Below, piece after piece: positions 38,523 through 55,000 of a stretch of DNA of 64,000 bases. Within the stretch, counting starts at the first letter, position 1, and each line of letters starts with the position of its first letter. The position numbers were made by a program, and so were the translations under genes. This DNA is from a bacterium (GTDB lineage: Bacteria; Actinomycetota; Acidimicrobiia; Acidimicrobiales; Bin134): positions 128,693 through 192,692 of the forward strand of contig JAPPAP010000032.1 of NCBI GenBank assembly GCA_026705465.1. The letters are read 5' to 3'. The notes under the pieces were generated by a model. The model ran no database searches, had not been told where the DNA came from, and was given only the letters and a program-made list of their open reading frames with translations.

Positions 38523-40268
38523 CTATCGGGCGCCGCGCACCAGCCGACCCGGGCGGGCCCCGGTGTCGTTGCCGCGGCTGCGGGTCACCTCGCCGGCCAC
38601 CACAGTGGCCACATAGCCGTCTGCCCGCTGGTCGAGGCGGCGGCCACCGGCGGGGAGGTCATGGACCACCCGGGGAGAGCGCAGGGTCAGCGCCTGATGG
38701 TCGATCACATTGGCATCGGCCCGTTTGCCCACTTCAAGCGTTCCCCGGTCGCCCAGCCCGTAGAGGGTGGCGGTGTCGTGAGTCTGCTTCTTCACCACCC
38801 ACTCCAGGGAGAGCTGCTCGCCCCGGGTGCGGTCCCTGGTCCAGTGGGTGAGCATGAAGGTGGGAATCGAGGCGTCGCAGATCATGCCGCAATGGGCCCC
38901 GCCGTCCGACAACCCCGACACACCGGCGGGATGCAGCAGCTGCTCTCGGATGACGTCGTGGTTCTCCTCCACGTAGTTGAACATGGGCAGCATCATCAGA
39001 GAGTGCCCGTCTTCTTCCAGGTAGAGGTCGTAAAGCATCTCGAATGGGTCCACCCCTCGTTGGGTGGCCATGGCGGTCACCGTCCGGTCGTTGGTGGGCT
39101 CATAGTCGGGCGGATCGCCGATCACATACAGCTTGTGGATCATCGACGCCACCATGCTGGGCATCTGGTCGAACAGCACCGTCGGGTCGGGGGGCAGATC
39201 ATCCTCGGCCAAGATTGCGGCCCTAACCGACGGCTTGCGCAGCTCGGCCACCAGTTCGTCGAAAGGCAGATGGGCCAGCGACGCAAAGGTGGGCCGCTTG
39301 GCAAAGGCGTGGTTGGTTTGAAGGCCAATGAGCATTCCGAACGGGCGACCCGCGATCTGGGGGTACACCCGGGCACCTTCGTCAACCGCCCGCAGCGACT
39401 GGTCCATCATCTCGCGCCACAAGTCAGGAGCAGCCTCAAGCTGCAATAGGGCAAAAGACACCGGCACGTTGAAGCGGGCCGACAGGCGCCGCATCCAGTC
39501 CATCTCCTTGGGCGGGGCCACCAAATCGAGGCCCGCGGCACCGGCGGGGGCCAGTTCGAACACCCCGGATCCGGCATCGGCCAGCGCTTGGCCCAAGCCG
39601 AACAGTTCGTCTTCGGCGGCGAAGGTGCCCGGCACCGGCTCGCCGTCGATAGCCCGATGGCCGAGAGTGCGGGATGTGGATACTCCCAGCGCGCCAGCCT
39701 CGATGGCCTCGCGAACGATGGCGTACATGGCCTCGATGTCTTCGGGGTTGGCCGGCTCATTCTTCGCCCCCCGCTCCCCCATCACGTAGCCCCGCACCGC
39801 GCCGTGGGCCACCTGGGTGGCCACATCGATCGACAGACGGCGCTCGTCCAGAACGTCGAGGTACTCGGGGAAGCTTTCCCACCCCCAGGTAATGCCCTCG
39901 GCCAGGGCGGTGCCGGGGATGTCCTCCACGCCCTCCATGAGCTGGATGAGCCAGTCCTCTTTGCCGGGCGCCACCGGAGCGAAGCCAACCCCGCAGTTGC
40001 CCATCACCACGGTGGTCACACCGTGGTTGGACGACGGCTGGAGCATGTCGTCCCAAGTGACCTGGCCGTCGTAGTGGGTGTGGCAGTCCACGAACCCGGG
40101 GGTCACCAGCAGCCCGGTGGCGTCTATGGTCTCAGCCGCCTCGGGGGCGGGACCGCCGCTGCGGTCCACTACCGCCACCTTGCCGTCCTTGACTCCAATG
40201 TGGCCGGTAAACCGATCGGCACCGGTGCCGTCCACGATCGTGCCATTGGCGATGACCAGATCCAGCAT
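38523..40268 (-). CDS. D-aminoacylase-like amidohydrolase, copy 1
   Basis: A 581-residue amidohydrolase of the N-acyl-D-amino-acid deacylase / dihydroorotase-like group: LVIANGTIVDGTGADRFTGHIGVKDG, metal motif VDCHTHYDGQVTWDDML, SDGGAHCGMICDAS and the C-terminal beta-sandwich with ANVIDHQALTLRSPRVVHDLPAGGRR. Strongly similar across its length to the next upstream gene (40305-42032), so a tandem duplication. Neighbour of a Rieske oxygenase. The acylated substrate is unknown. Confidence 0.88.
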   Translation of the reverse strand: MLDLVIANGTIVDGTGADRFTGHIGVKDGKVAVVDRSGGPAPEAAETIDATGLLVTPGFVDCHTHYDGQVTWDDMLQPSSNHGVTTVVMGNCGVGFAPVAPGKEDWLIQLMEGVEDIPGTALAEGITWGWESFPEYLDVLDERRLSIDVATQVAHGAVRGYVMGERGAKNEPANPEDIEAMYAIVREAIEAGALGVSTSRTLGHRAIDGEPVPGTFAAEDELFGLGQALADAGSGVFELAPAGAAGLDLVAPPKEMDWMRRLSARFNVPVSFALLQLEAAPDLWREMMDQSLRAVDEGARVYPQIAGRPFGMLIGLQTNHAFAKRPTFASLAHLPFDELVAELRKPSVRAAILAEDDLPPDPTVLFDQMPSMVASMIHKLYVIGDPPDYEPTNDRTVTAMATQRGVDPFEMLYDLYLEEDGHSLMMLPMFNYVEENHDVIREQLLHPAGVSGLSDGGAHCGMICDASIPTFMLTHWTRDRTRGEQLSLEWVVKKQTHDTATLYGLGDRGTLEVGKRADANVIDHQALTLRSPRVVHDLPAGGRRLDQRADGYVATVVAGEVTRSRGNDTGARPGRLVRGAR

Positions 40269-40304: not shown

Positions 40305-42032
40305 CTAGGCGCCCGCCCGAAGCAGCTTGCCGGGGCGGGCCCCGGTGTCCTCACCGTTGCGGCGAATGACCTCCCCGCTGACCAGGGTGGCCACGTATCC
40401 GGTCGCCCTTTGATCGAAGCGACGACCCCCTGCGGGCAAATCGGCCACCAGCTTGGGCGGGTGCAACGTGAGCCGCTCGTGGTCGATGATGTTCAGGTCG
40501 GCCTTCATGCCCGGCTCCACCGTTCCCCGGTCGGTGAGGCCGAACAGCCGGGCGGTGTCGCGCGACTGCTTTTGCACCACATACTCCAAGGGGAGCTTCT
40601 CGCCCCGCTGGCGGTCGCGGGCCCAGAAGGTGAGCAGCCAAGTGGGCATGGAGGCGTCGCAGATCGCCCCGCAGTGGGCCCCGCCGTCGGACAGCCCTGA
40701 CACCCCGGATGGGTGGAGGAACATCTCTCGGACCGCGTCGGCGTTGCCGTGGCTGTAGTTGAGGAACGGGAACAGCAGCAGCGCCCGGCCGTCGTCTCCC
40801 AACAGCAGGTCGTACAGCAAGTCCTCGGTTTCCCGGCCTTGGGCCTCGGCAATGGCGGCCACCGACCGCTCGGGGCCGGGCTCGTAGTCGGGGGGATCGC
40901 CCAGCACGTAGATCCGATGGAGCTGGGTGCCCATGTACTCGGCGAACTGGTTGGTGAACGAGCTCTCCTCCGACAGGATCGCTGCTTTGCGCTCAGGACG
41001 GCGCAGCTCGGCCACCAGCTCATCCAGGGGCAGCTCGGCAATCTCGGCGAAGCTGGGCCGGCTGCTGAAGGCGTGGTTGGTCTGAAGCCCGATCAGGATG
41101 CCGTTGCAGCGGGGAGCCACCTGGGGATGGAGCTGGGCTCCCTCGGCCACTGCATCGGCCGACAGGTCCATGATCTCCCGCCACAGCTCGGGGGCAGCGT
41201 CCACCTGCACCAGGGCGAAGGTAACCGGACGGCCGGTGGCAGCCGACAGGCGGCGCATCCAGTCGACCTCCTTGTGGGGAGCGGCCAAGTCCTCGCCGAC
41301 CACTCCGGCGGGGGCCAGCTCGTACAGGCCGTGGCCCACCTCGGTCAGCGCCTCGCCGATGCCGAACAGCTCGTCTTCAGCCGCATAGGTGCCGGGTACC
41401 GGTTCGCCGTCGATGGCCATGTGGGCGATGGTGCGAGACGTGGAGAAGCCAAAGGCCCCGGCTCGCAGCGCCTCGGCCACAATCTCCCGCATCTTGGCGA
41501 TGTCCTCAGGGGTGGCCAGCTCGTTCTTTGCCCCGCGTTCCCCCATCACATAGGCCCGCACCGCGCCATGGGGCACTTGGCAGCCGATGTCAAGTGACAG
41601 GGGCTTGCGCTCCAAGGCGTCGAGGTACTCGGGGAATGTCTCCCACTCCCAGGTGATCCCCTCCGACAGAGCGGCACCGGGAATATCCTCTACACCCTCC
41701 ATGAGCTGGATGAGCCACTCCTCGGTGCCGGGACGCACCGGGGCGAAGCCCACCCCGCAATTGCCCATCATCACCGTGGTCACGCCGTGGTGAGCAGAGG
41801 GCTCCAGAATCGGATCCCAGGTAACTTGGCCGTCGTAGTGGGTGTGGCAGTCGACAAATCCGGGAGTCACCAGCAGTCCGGCAGCGTCGATAACCTCGCT
41901 GCCCTCCAGATCGGGGCTCCCACCGGGGTACACCCCCGCGATTCGGTCCCCATCGATGGCCACATCCCCGGTGAACGGCTCACCCCCGGTGCCGTCCACA
42001 ATCAATCCGCCCTTGATCACCAGGTCGTGCAT
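40305..42032 (-). CDS. D-aminoacylase-like amidohydrolase, copy 2
   Basis: A 575-residue paralogue of 38523-40268 with the same landmarks: LVIKGGLIVDGTGGEPFTGDVAIDGD, VDCHTHYDGQVTWDPIL, ATSRTI-like strand FGFSTSRTIAHMAIDGEPVPGT, SDGGAHCGAICDAS. Copies differ mostly in surface segments and in the lengths of two loops. It starts 98 bp from the divergent selenoprotein arsC gene. Specificities may differ, giving two activities towards related N-acyl or cyclic ureido substrates. Confidence 0.88.
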   Translation of the reverse strand: MHDLVIKGGLIVDGTGGEPFTGDVAIDGDRIAGVYPGGSPDLEGSEVIDAAGLLVTPGFVDCHTHYDGQVTWDPILEPSAHHGVTTVMMGNCGVGFAPVRPGTEEWLIQLMEGVEDIPGAALSEGITWEWETFPEYLDALERKPLSLDIGCQVPHGAVRAYVMGERGAKNELATPEDIAKMREIVAEALRAGAFGFSTSRTIAHMAIDGEPVPGTYAAEDELFGIGEALTEVGHGLYELAPAGVVGEDLAAPHKEVDWMRRLSAATGRPVTFALVQVDAAPELWREIMDLSADAVAEGAQLHPQVAPRCNGILIGLQTNHAFSSRPSFAEIAELPLDELVAELRRPERKAAILSEESSFTNQFAEYMGTQLHRIYVLGDPPDYEPGPERSVAAIAEAQGRETEDLLYDLLLGDDGRALLLFPFLNYSHGNADAVREMFLHPSGVSGLSDGGAHCGAICDASMPTWLLTFWARDRQRGEKLPLEYVVQKQSRDTARLFGLTDRGTVEPGMKADLNIIDHERLTLHPPKLVADLPAGGRRFDQRATGYVATLVSGEVIRRNGEDTGARPGKLLRAGA

Positions 42033-42130
42033 ACAGCCATGCTAGAGGGTGATGTGTTCAACCGCCGATCCGCGCCTCCAACAAATCGGTCAGAACAGAA
42101 GCAATCCCAGGACTGAGATAACGTCGGGGG

Positions 42131-42481
42131 ATGGCTGAGATCGTCGTGTATCACAACCCCGGTTGAGGCAAGTCCCGGGGCGCGCTCGAGATCCTCGAGT
42201 CGCGCGGCGTCGAGTTCGACGTCGTCCAATATCTCAAGAATCCGCTAAGCCGAGACGACTTGGAGCGCTTCTTGGAGATGCTGCCCAACGAACCGGCCGA
42301 GCTGGTTCGAGAAGACGGCCACTTCAAGGATCTCGGGCTGAATATCAACGACTATCAGAGCACTGACGCCGTGGTCGACCTACTGATGGAGCATCCCAAG
42401 CTGATGCAACGGCCGATCGTCGTCCGGGGTGATCAAGCCGTCATTGCCCGCCCCTCGGAATTGGTTGAAGAGCTGTTGTGA
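42131..42481 (+). CDS. arsC: ArsC-family arsenate reductase with in-frame TGA at Cys12 (predicted selenoprotein)
   Basis: Reading from the ATG at 42131 gives MAEIVVYHNPG, then TGA at 42164-42166 as codon 12, then GKSRGALEILESRG and an uninterrupted frame to TGA at 42479-42481 (116 residues). E. coli plasmid R773 ArsC reads YHNPACGTSR with catalytic Cys12, so the TGA sits exactly on the nucleophile. Arg60 (AELVR), Arg94 (MQRPIVV) and Arg107 (IARPSELV), the arsenate-binding residues, fall at identical numbers. A strong hairpin follows the TGA. I infer selenocysteine. Without recoding only a truncated product of 11 residues would form. It could also be a nonsense mutation or a Spx/YffB-like relative. 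Confidence 0.85.
42181..42204 (+). promoter_or_regulatory. candidate bacterial SECIS hairpin
   Basis: CGCGCTCGAG (42181-42190) pairs with CTCGAG-T-CGCG (42194-42204) through ten base pairs with one bulged T, leaving apical ATC (or GATCC if the closing pair opens, which puts G first in the loop). The loop begins 24 nt after the TGA at 42164-42166, inside the 16-37 nt window described for bacterial SECIS elements. It lies inside the coding region, as bacterial SECIS elements do. Confidence 0.65.
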
Positions 42482-43311
42482 GGCTTTGGTGGACCGGAGG
42501 ATCCGAAGGGGTGGATCGGGCGGAAGCCGAATCGATTCGCGCCATGCATCGATCCGATGTCGCATCTGCCACATCCCCCCGATCCAAGCCACTCAAGCAG
42601 CCACATGGCACCGAGGAGTTCCCCGAGGGCGCGACCATCGTGGCCGGGCCCGACGGAAAGCCTTACCCCGTGGCCGCGGTGTGGCGGCGGGCGCTGGCCC
42701 GGATAATCGATGCGGTCACCGTGTTCTTCATCCAGTGGATGCTCACCGTCATCCAGTTGCTGTGGTTCATGGACGACGTGTCCAATCGGTGGCAACCCGA
42801 GCCGTGGGGCCGGGCCACCGCCGCCATCCTGGGCTACATCTTCTTCCACTTCATGTACACGATGGTGTTCCTGCGCTGGAACGAGGGCCAGACCCCGGCC
42901 ATGGACCTCATGAAGCTGCGAGCGGTACGTACCAAAGACGGGAGCCACCTCGGTTTGGGCCGGTGCGGTGCCCGATGGCTGGTGGGCGGGGTGTCGTGGC
43001 TCGTCCCCCCCGTAGTGCTTGGCGGGATCATTGTGAATGCGGCCACCTACCTGACAGTCCCCTTCGAGCGCCGCCGCCGCACAGTGTCGGACTGGGTGGC
43101 CGGAACCACGGTCATCGCCTATGACCGCGACAAAGAAGATCCCGACGGGGAGCTCGAGGAAGTGCTGGATGAGTTCGGCCAGCCGATGTCGGTTCGGGAG
43201 CAGATCCGACGCAAGTACGGTCTCTTCGGGGGCCTGACCGGGATGGGAAGGCGGCTCGGCGACCGGTATCGGGATGACGGCAGATCACCGCGGGATTCCC
43301 AGAGGCATTGA
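42478..43311 (+). CDS. RDD-family membrane protein
   Basis: A 277-residue protein with the RDD pattern AVWRRALARIIDAVTVFFIQW, further membrane segments around RATAAILGYIFFHFMYTMVF and LVGGVSWLVPPVVLGGIIVNAA, and LGRCGARWLVGG as the conserved basic helix. The C-terminus (from about 215) is cytoplasmic and charged. The GTG at 42478 overlaps the arsC stop by 4 nt (GTGA), arguing for coupling; an ATG at 42544 is an alternative start. RDD proteins are often transport-related; coupling suggests a link to arsenic or selenium handling, but that is inference. Confidence 0.8.
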   Translation: MRLWWTGGSEGVDRAEAESIRAMHRSDVASATSPRSKPLKQPHGTEEFPEGATIVAGPDGKPYPVAAVWRRALARIIDAVTVFFIQWMLTVIQLLWFMDDVSNRWQPEPWGRATAAILGYIFFHFMYTMVFLRWNEGQTPAMDLMKLRAVRTKDGSHLGLGRCGARWLVGGVSWLVPPVVLGGIIVNAATYLTVPFERRRRTVSDWVAGTTVIAYDRDKEDPDGELEEVLDEFGQPMSVREQIRRKYGLFGGLTGMGRRLGDRYRDDGRSPRDSQRH

Positions 43312-52793: not shown

Positions 52794-54077
52794 CTAGCCC
52801 ACCCGTGCCTTGATCCCGAACAGGCCTTGGGGCCGGAACAGCAGCACCAGGATGAGCGCGGCCAACGGCACCACAAACTTCAACTCGGGCGAGATCCACA
52901 GGGTGCTCACCTCAGTGGACATGCCGATGATGAGCGACCCGGCCAGGGCGCCGAACGCCGTGCCCAGCCCGCCGAGCTCCACCCCGGCGAAGATCAACAA
53001 CAAGAGCTGGAAACCCAAGAACGGATCGATATCGGTGTCGAGGCCTTGGAACACCCCGCCGAGTCCGGCCAAGGCCGCCCCCATGGCCCACACCATCAAC
53101 ACCACCCGGTTCACGTTGATGCCCGATGCCTCGGCCAGGCTGGCGTTGTCCGACACCGCCCGGGTGGCCTTGCCGAAACGGGTCCACTGGAGCATCATCC
53201 CCACGGCCAGCAAGAGGACAATGATCACCGCCACGGTCACCAATTCCCGAGGGGTCACCGCCCAGGGTCCGAACTCCCATCGCTCCTGCACTTGAAAGTC
53301 GGTGTAGGGCAGGGGCTCAGCACCGAAGAACAGCTGGATCACCTGGCGTCCCAGCAGCGACAGGCCGATGGTCACCACCACTAGCTGGAAAATGCCCAGT
53401 CGTCGGTGCCGCAGCGGACGGAACAGCCCCGTTTCCAACCCCGCCCCCAGCATTCCGCACACGATCATGGTGACGATGGCGGCCACAATCAGATTCAGCT
53501 CGCCCCACGAGCTGTTGAAGTACCAGGCGATGACCGCACCAAAGGTCACTAACTCCCCGTGGGCGAAGTTGACCAAGCCGGTGGTCCCGTAGATGAGCGA
53601 CAGGCCGATGGCACTCATGGCGATGATCAGGCCAAATTTCAGGCCGTTGAACACCGTTTGCGCCGCCCGCTCCCCGAATGGAGTGCCCTTGGGGGCTTCG
53701 CCCACTGCGAATACCACCGCTCGGGAGGCACCCTCGGTCACAGCCACCTCGACGGTGGATTCGAACCCCTCCCTCAGCCCGATCCCCTCGGGCAAGGTGC
53801 TCTCGTCGAGGGTGACCCGGTACGCGCCAGCACCGGGGACTGTCACTGACCATTGGCCTTCGGAGTCGGTGACTGCCTGGCCGACCTTTGTGCCGGATTG
53901 GTCGGCCACGGTGATCTCAACCCCGGCGAAGAACTGGTCAAAGCCCACTCGAAGGGTGCCCTCCAGCACCGATGGCTGAGAGCTGTCGGCGTCGCCTCCC
54001 GACTGGGCCATGGAAGGGGCGACCCAAGCCAGCACCAGACAGAGCACAAGACCAGCGAGCGCGAGAAGCCTCCGCAT
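52794..54077 (-). CDS. livH: LivH permease with N-terminal secreted domain (fusion)
   Basis: A 427-residue protein. Residues 1-24 are a signal peptide (LLALAGLVLCLVLAWVAPSMAQ). Residues about 35-125 form a predicted beta-sandwich resembling carboxypeptidase-regulatory/Cna-B domains (LRVGFDQFFAGVEITVADQSG, TDSEGQWSVTVPGAGAYRVTLDE). From about 140 a normal LivH permease follows (GLKFGLIIAMSAIGLSLIYGTTGLVNFAHGELVTFGA). Canonical LivH is about 290-310 residues and lacks the front part. The domain would lie outside the membrane, possibly docking substrate-binding lipoproteins such as those at 56865-61487; that is inference. Divergent from larE. Confidence 0.9.
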   Translation of the reverse strand: MRRLLALAGLVLCLVLAWVAPSMAQSGGDADSSQPSVLEGTLRVGFDQFFAGVEITVADQSGTKVGQAVTDSEGQWSVTVPGAGAYRVTLDESTLPEGIGLREGFESTVEVAVTEGASRAVVFAVGEAPKGTPFGERAAQTVFNGLKFGLIIAMSAIGLSLIYGTTGLVNFAHGELVTFGAVIAWYFNSSWGELNLIVAAIVTMIVCGMLGAGLETGLFRPLRHRRLGIFQLVVVTIGLSLLGRQVIQLFFGAEPLPYTDFQVQERWEFGPWAVTPRELVTVAVIIVLLLAVGMMLQWTRFGKATRAVSDNASLAEASGINVNRVVLMVWAMGAALAGLGGVFQGLDTDIDPFLGFQLLLLIFAGVELGGLGTAFGALAGSLIIGMSTEVSTLWISPELKFVVPLAALILVLLFRPQGLFGIKARVG

Positions 54078-54166
54078 CTGCTTTCACGCTACTGCCCGGT
54101 ACAGGATGCCTAGTGGAGCCGTCAACGGCGATCGAATATTCCTGCTCCCCGTTTCACGAGCAGCCA

Positions 54167-55000
54167 GTGAGCGACCAAAATGGGGGCGTGGGGGACTGGG
54201 AGCGGTTGCGGAGCGATCTGGCCGAGATGGACAGCGTGATGGTTGCTTTCAGCGGCGGCGTCGACTCCTCCTTCTTGGCCTGGGTGGCTCACGACGTGTT
54301 GGGCGACCGTGCCCACGCCGTGACCGCGGTATCGCCGTCATTGGCGAAGGCTGAGCGTGAGGACTGCGCGTCGCTGGCCGCCGAGTGGGGCCTGCGGTGG
54401 AGCGAAGTACACACCGACGAAATGGAACACGCCGCCTACGTGGCCAATGACGGCGACCGGTGCTACTGGTGCAAGGACGCGCTCATGGATGCGGTAGCCC
54501 CACTGGCTGAGGCCACGTCGTCGACAGTGGCGCTAGGAGTGAACACCGACGACTTGGGCGACCACCGCCCGGGCCAGCGGGCCGCGGCGGAACGGGGTGC
54601 GGTGTTTCCCCTGGTGGACGCCGAATTTTCCAAGGCCGATGTTCGAGAGTGGTCGCAGCGGCTGGGGTTGCGCACCTGGGACAAGCCGGCTGCCCCCTGC
54701 CTGGCTTCCCGGATCCCCTATGGCACCCCGGTGACCATGGGGGCACTGGCCTCAGTGGGAGACGCCGAGGCTGCCCTCAGGAGGCTGGGATTCGCAGAAC
54801 TGCGAGTTCGCCACTACGGCGACCTGGCCCGGATCGAAGTGCCCGAAGAGCGCTTGGCCGATGTGGTTGCCCAGCGGGCTGCGGTGGTGGAGGCGGTGCG
54901 CCAGGCCGGCTACCGGTATGCCACGCTCGACCTTGACGGCTTCCGCTCCGGCAATCTGAACGACGTGCTCGATATCGGCCCGTCGTCTTCGCGTCCTTGA
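54167..55000 (+). CDS. larE: ATP-dependent sacrificial sulfur transferase LarE
   Basis: A 277-residue PP-loop ATPase: VMVAFSGGVDSSFLAWVAHDVLG, DRCYWCKDALMD, NTDDLGDHRPGQRAA and the sulfur-donor Cys in PAAPCLASRIPYGTPV. LarE adenylates and sulfurates the nickel-pincer precursor of lactate racemase, sacrificing its own cysteine sulfur. The GTG at 54167 fits the family; the frame extends back to 53972. No larB or larC is in the window. Divergent from livH with an 89-bp gap. Confidence 0.9.
   Translation: MSDQNGGVGDWERLRSDLAEMDSVMVAFSGGVDSSFLAWVAHDVLGDRAHAVTAVSPSLAKAEREDCASLAAEWGLRWSEVHTDEMEHAAYVANDGDRCYWCKDALMDAVAPLAEATSSTVALGVNTDDLGDHRPGQRAAAERGAVFPLVDAEFSKADVREWSQRLGLRTWDKPAAPCLASRIPYGTPVTMGALASVGDAEAALRRLGFAELRVRHYGDLARIEVPEERLADVVAQRAAVVEAVRQAGYRYATLDLDGFRSGNLNDVLDIGPSSSRP

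Follow-up and report, generated by a model that had tools for sequence, protein, structure and literature searches.

A probable selenocysteine form of the arsenate reductase ArsC in Acidimicrobiales

An ArsC-type arsenate reductase gene in the window, the whole 64,000-nucleotide stretch of DNA analyzed in this study, is interrupted by a TGA codon at the position of the catalytic cysteine. Is the gene broken at this point, or is the codon read as selenocysteine (Sec), and would the product then reduce arsenate? Sec forms of ArsC have been predicted before in metagenomic surveys, as the sequence-only reading of this DNA had stated: Zhang and Gladyshev 2008 (PMC2398784) described "Arsenate reductase (ArsC) 1" (pfam03960, UxxS) from ocean metagenomes (GOS), with 77 Sec and 784 Cys sequences. 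Two reviews of 2022 and 2026 (PMC13188914, PMC9312934) list it under TIGR00014 or COG1393 with the UxxS motif and accession MBT3519430.1, and the later of them (2026) describes such selenoprotein families as largely uncharacterised. No bench test of the Sec ArsC 1 family was found in the literature searched; Acidimicrobiia selenoproteins had no paper of their own there, only incidental mentions.

The catalytic codon and its homologues

The Sec-ArsC coding sequence lies at 42131-42481 on the plus strand. Translation of window positions 42101-42520 gives a frame that starts with ATG at 42131, encodes 116 aa and contains one internal stop, the TGA at 42164-42166 (codon 12). The residues MAEIVVYHNPG precede this codon, GKSRGALEIL follow it, and the protein ends in VEELL before the terminal stop at 42479-42481, which is also TGA. 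With the internal TGA read as Cys, the protein passes the Pfam ArsC profile (PF03960; 50.6 bits, cut-off 24) and, narrowly, TIGR00014 arsC (108.1 bits, cut-off 106.05). The alignment with R773 ArsC (PDB 1jzw/1i9d) begins at residue 1 and is gap-free through Cys12, placing the TGA in the column of this catalytic residue within the motif NPG-U-GKS (UxxS). The arginines of the arsenate site carry identical numbers in both proteins, namely Arg60 (codon 42308-42310), Arg94 (42410-42412) and Arg107 (42449-42451), all on the plus strand. The earlier description of the frame, its single TGA and the three arginines is exact. Sec is the sole selenol or thiol of the protein, which has no Cys at all. The Spx/MgsR profile TIGR01617 scored 51.9 bits, under its cut-off of 75.05, and the NF041106 profile gave zero matches at E 0.001, with Ser replacing the Cys of its motif.

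Homologues were searched in 298 genomes of the order and found in 185 of them, and every match within the genus of the window has one TGA. A total of 128 homologues were parsed from the order search, named metagenome-assembled genomes (MAGs) and 60 further loci; some species are present twice (two collections), and the distinct proteins number 115, of which 74 are Sec. At the catalytic codon, 86 homologues have TGA, 35 TGC and 7 TGT, and no other codon occurs. Each of the 86 TGA proteins has one TGA only, always at the catalytic column. Sec/Cys pairs (86 TGA, 42 TGC/TGT) at exactly the codon 12 column are what the sequence-only reading had called decisive, and its argument that the TGA is not placed at random is borne out by the recurrence of this codon in independent MAGs. 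The conserved residues H8, N9, S15, R60, R94, P95, R107 and P108 are shared by Sec and Cys forms. Within the Sec proteins N9 is found in 86/86, H8 in 85/86 and Ser15 in 85/86; the three arginines are invariant in all 86 and in the 30 Cys homologues from the order. Cysteine is wholly absent from 84 of the 86 Sec proteins.

A stop codon in frame might denote a pseudogene, arisen through a nonsense mutation or a sequencing error in a Cys-type arsC, and TGA is an ordinary stop in this genome and also terminates the ArsC gene itself. However, the 86 loci with TGA at the same codon come from many assemblies and show no other lesion. Downstream of the TGA, dN/dS is about 0.1 (0.06-0.12 between the window and close congeners in the genus), which reveals purifying selection, and the close relatives are intact, with no decayed copies. 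These data and the presence of Sec machinery in the genome make a pseudogene extremely improbable. Translation could also start internally, giving a shortened product that lacks the catalytic residue and leaving the upstream piece as a leader peptide. Such a start is hardly credible, as the 11 codons upstream of the TGA are conserved at the amino-acid level, through N9 and H8 in the Sec proteins and with pN of 0.00-0.11 against pS of 0.14-0.48 among close congeners, and the Cys homologues have an undivided frame.

On the sequences compared here, Sec-ArsC is widely spread and conserved across one order, Acidimicrobiales. The named records are mainly Acidimicrobiia MAGs, including Candidatus Poriferisocius and the Sva0996 marine group, and the record names point to a sponge origin for several of them; the host is described as a sponge-associated or marine bacterium. 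Gammaproteobacteria/Pseudomonadales MAGs (L095-L100) encode Sec-ArsC proteins that are 66-69% identical to that of the window, nearer than many from Acidimicrobiia. In the tree these copies sit within an Acidimicrobiia clade (SH-aLRT 85-92), a placement that suggests transfer between the lineages. One genome (G139) possesses two different Sec-ArsC copies (L047, L161), which fall in separate clades.

Selenocysteine machinery and the putative SECIS hairpin

The genome of the window (3.11 Mb, 40 contigs, 96% complete) was searched for the Sec machinery, as had been proposed along with the Sec reading, and selA, selB and selD were all found. In the profile search selA scored 405.6 bits (C3:16210-17361), selB (271 bits, C3:17435-19129) is located directly after selA on contig C3, and selD (356 bits) lies on contig C19 (L022:1387-2544; G000:C19 about 53941-54885). 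At GAG-U-AGK the selD gene contains an in-frame TGA too, where other SelD proteins have a catalytic Cys or Sec. SelD appears to be a second selenoprotein of this genome, and a further gene with in-frame TGA, of the kind the earlier reading had advised looking for, is thereby at hand. A scan of the window for further genes joined across a TGA gave three joins (3239/3240, 31918/31919 and 60207/60208), which look like neighbouring genes.

A tRNA-Sec search of the genome gave only Ser, Leu, Trp, Thr and Tyr tRNAs at the loci inspected, which would mean absence of selC; this is overturned by the start of contig C3. Bases 1-52 of the contig (L073:1-52) equal, letter for letter, the 3' part of the tRNA-Sec of a congener, called by ARAGORN as tRNA-SeC with anticodon tca. 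Since C3 starts inside this congener-matching gene, selC is present on the same contig as selAB and is truncated by the contig edge, where the assembly has its 3' half and not the full-length gene. Across the genus, tRNA-Sec was found above cut-off in 17 of 22 genomes, and in three congeners about 2.6 kb separates selC from a contig end. A standard tRNA scan would return zero tRNA-Sec for the window's genome.

Among the genomes listed, selA is present in 88 of 90 with TGA-ArsC versus 26 of 56 with Cys-ArsC only (Fisher p 1.5e-13, relatedness uncorrected); the two TGA-ArsC genomes without selA are the draft assemblies G170 (83% complete) and G282 (93%). Cys forms nested in Sec clades were found in two families. 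The first, f7, contains the Cys form L174 from a genome without selA and the Sec relatives L175 and L170 from genomes with selA; the second, f20, has the Cys forms L126 and L163 without selA and the Sec relative L173 with it. The three Cys forms have the look of reversions from Sec to Cys accompanied by loss of the Sec trait. The Sec/Cys changes needed number 7 in one tree and 5 in a second one restricted to order members, with few branches well supported, and a tree-based independent-pairs test of Sec versus selA had only 2-5 pairs and no power. The co-occurrence of Sec genes with the TGA form also bears on reassignment of TGA throughout the genome, for example to Trp, or readthrough without Sec. 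Either is highly unlikely, given the Sec genes, an ArsC gene that itself ends on TGA, and only Cys at this site in the aligned homologues.

A putative bacterial SECIS hairpin lies at 42182-42203 (plus strand), with arms at 42182-42190 and 42194-42203 and the apical loop at 42191-42193, 25-27 nt past the UGA; across the genus, 95% of cells preserve it. In 26 distinct sequences of a sister clade, the loop GGUC stands 24-27 nt past the UGA on a stem of 7 bp. There 97.3% of cells are paired and 3 pairs have changed on both sides, a covariation reached by 0 of 500 shuffles, and slid structures fail. The identical-synonym rate of codons +5 to +11 is 0.81 in the sister clade versus 0.51 elsewhere, and 0.83 versus 0.71 in the window genus, against 0.54 versus 0.63 in the Cys-type control. 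Within the window genus the hairpin displays zero covariation, with too little divergence for informative changes; its single-sequence fold does not exceed shuffles in stability (z 0.02), and an Rfam search of 42000-42700 returned zero families. Because the loop stands at the same distance from the UGA as in the covarying sister-clade hairpin, the SECIS was assigned by position, and judging from this position and the sister clade the window's hairpin would be the SECIS element. We infer the insertion of Sec itself from the evidence above, and decoding of the UGA at codon 12 as Sec is almost certain.

Relation to known ArsC families

The window ArsC is a well-supported member of the previously predicted Sec ArsC 1 (UxxS) family, sharing with the published description (PMC2398784) the Pfam family, the NCBIfam equivalog, the UxxS motif and Sec at the catalytic position. 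The earlier accounts cite reads from metagenomes or individual accessions, whereas the carriers in this study are Acidimicrobiales genomes with Sec machinery, together with a related form in Gammaproteobacteria MAGs. New are the spread across the order, the related gammaproteobacterial copy and a setting in which no ars neighbours, Acr3 or ArsB were found. A family formerly known from short ocean reads can now be assigned to named lineages of hosts whose genomes decode Sec, and single bacterial families are seen to contain Sec/Cys pairs. The old question of why a cell should bear the cost of Sec instead of Cys thereby becomes testable, on an enzyme of 116 residues whose Cys counterpart is structurally well solved. 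Gene callers that treat TGA as a stop only would truncate or miss Sec-ArsC in many Acidimicrobiia genomes.

NF041106, or 'Arsenate reductase 2' (PMC2398784; UxxC), likewise belongs to the ArsC/Spx superfamily and has Sec at the N-terminal redox position. Its second motif position is Cys, whereas the window ArsC has Ser there and is Cys-free. The UAG-Sec ArsC of PMC4150793 was set aside, being an engineered Bacillus subtilis enzyme (Sec89) of a different family. The glutaredoxin-dependent ArsC of E. coli plasmid R773 is like the window protein in fold, in a collinear active site and in the three arsenate arginines, and both have one catalytic chalcogen and an external thiol. The window ArsC differs in having Sec for Cys12, in that mycothiol is expected over glutathione, and in its place outside an ars operon. 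The ArsC1 and ArsC2 of Corynebacterium depend on mycothiol/mycoredoxin and have the LMW-phosphatase fold; they represent actinobacterial arsenate reduction with a small thiol too, whereas fold and active site are unrelated.

Fold, proposed mechanism and substrate

The structure predicted by AlphaFold2 from a 19-sequence alignment has a pLDDT of 93.9, and its nearest PDB structures are ArsC enzymes, including 1i9d and the arsenate-bound 1jzw (TM 0.87). Most probably the gene product is a functional arsenate reductase of the glutaredoxin fold (R773-type) with UGA codon 12 decoded as Sec. In the proposed mechanism, the UGA would be read as Sec by SelB, Sec-tRNA-Sec and the SECIS hairpin just downstream. 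By analogy with R773 ArsC, the Sec12 selenolate would then attack arsenate held by Arg60, Arg94 and Arg107, and a low-molecular-weight thiol, for an actinobacterium most likely mycothiol, would attack the Se-As(V) adduct and reduce it to arsenite. A redoxin would resolve the resulting Se-S bond. With 84 of 86 Sec proteins cysteine-free, the thiol for resolution has to be supplied by a separate molecule. Mycothiol is probable in the host because of an MshC-like protein (440 bits, below the 485 cut-off); a second match to the MshC profile (305 bits) is probably a cysteinyl-tRNA synthetase. The TIGR02200 redoxin was not found in the genome.

Arsenate is, with some reserve, the physiological substrate that we favour for the predicted reductase. 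Association with an arsenite exporter is usual for R773-type ArsC and not obligatory. No ars genes near Sec-ArsC were recognised by eye in 15 loci, and Acr3 and ArsB were not found in the 96%-complete genome, so that another oxyanion or a mixed disulfide may be the substrate instead. Relatives within the ArsC fold, such as Spx and the YffB/nitrogenase-associated proteins, do not all reduce arsenate. The protein could accordingly be a Sec glutaredoxin-like oxidoreductase acting on a mixed disulfide of a small thiol or on another oxyanion, and be ArsC by descent only. The failure to find an exporter or ars neighbours speaks for this; the invariance of Arg60, Arg94 and Arg107 in 86/86 Sec proteins and the TIGR00014 equivalog cut-off, passed narrowly, speak against it, and we consider it the less probable reading, though one of real weight. 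More tentative still is a role other than detoxification, in which a Cys-free, selenol-only reductase of the ArsC fold would act on other oxyanions or small-thiol adducts without an arsenite exporter; such a role may possibly extend over the Acidimicrobiales and the Gammaproteobacteria MAGs, presumed sponge symbionts.

The order of genes at the locus in the genus, with names given by eye, is a divergent amidohydrolase gene, Sec-ArsC and the gene of an RDD-type membrane protein. In the window, two adjacent and similar amidohydrolase-like genes are found on the minus strand (38523-40268 and 40305-42032), both with GFVDCHTHYDGQVTWD, and this pair next to Sec-ArsC is probably a tandem duplication.
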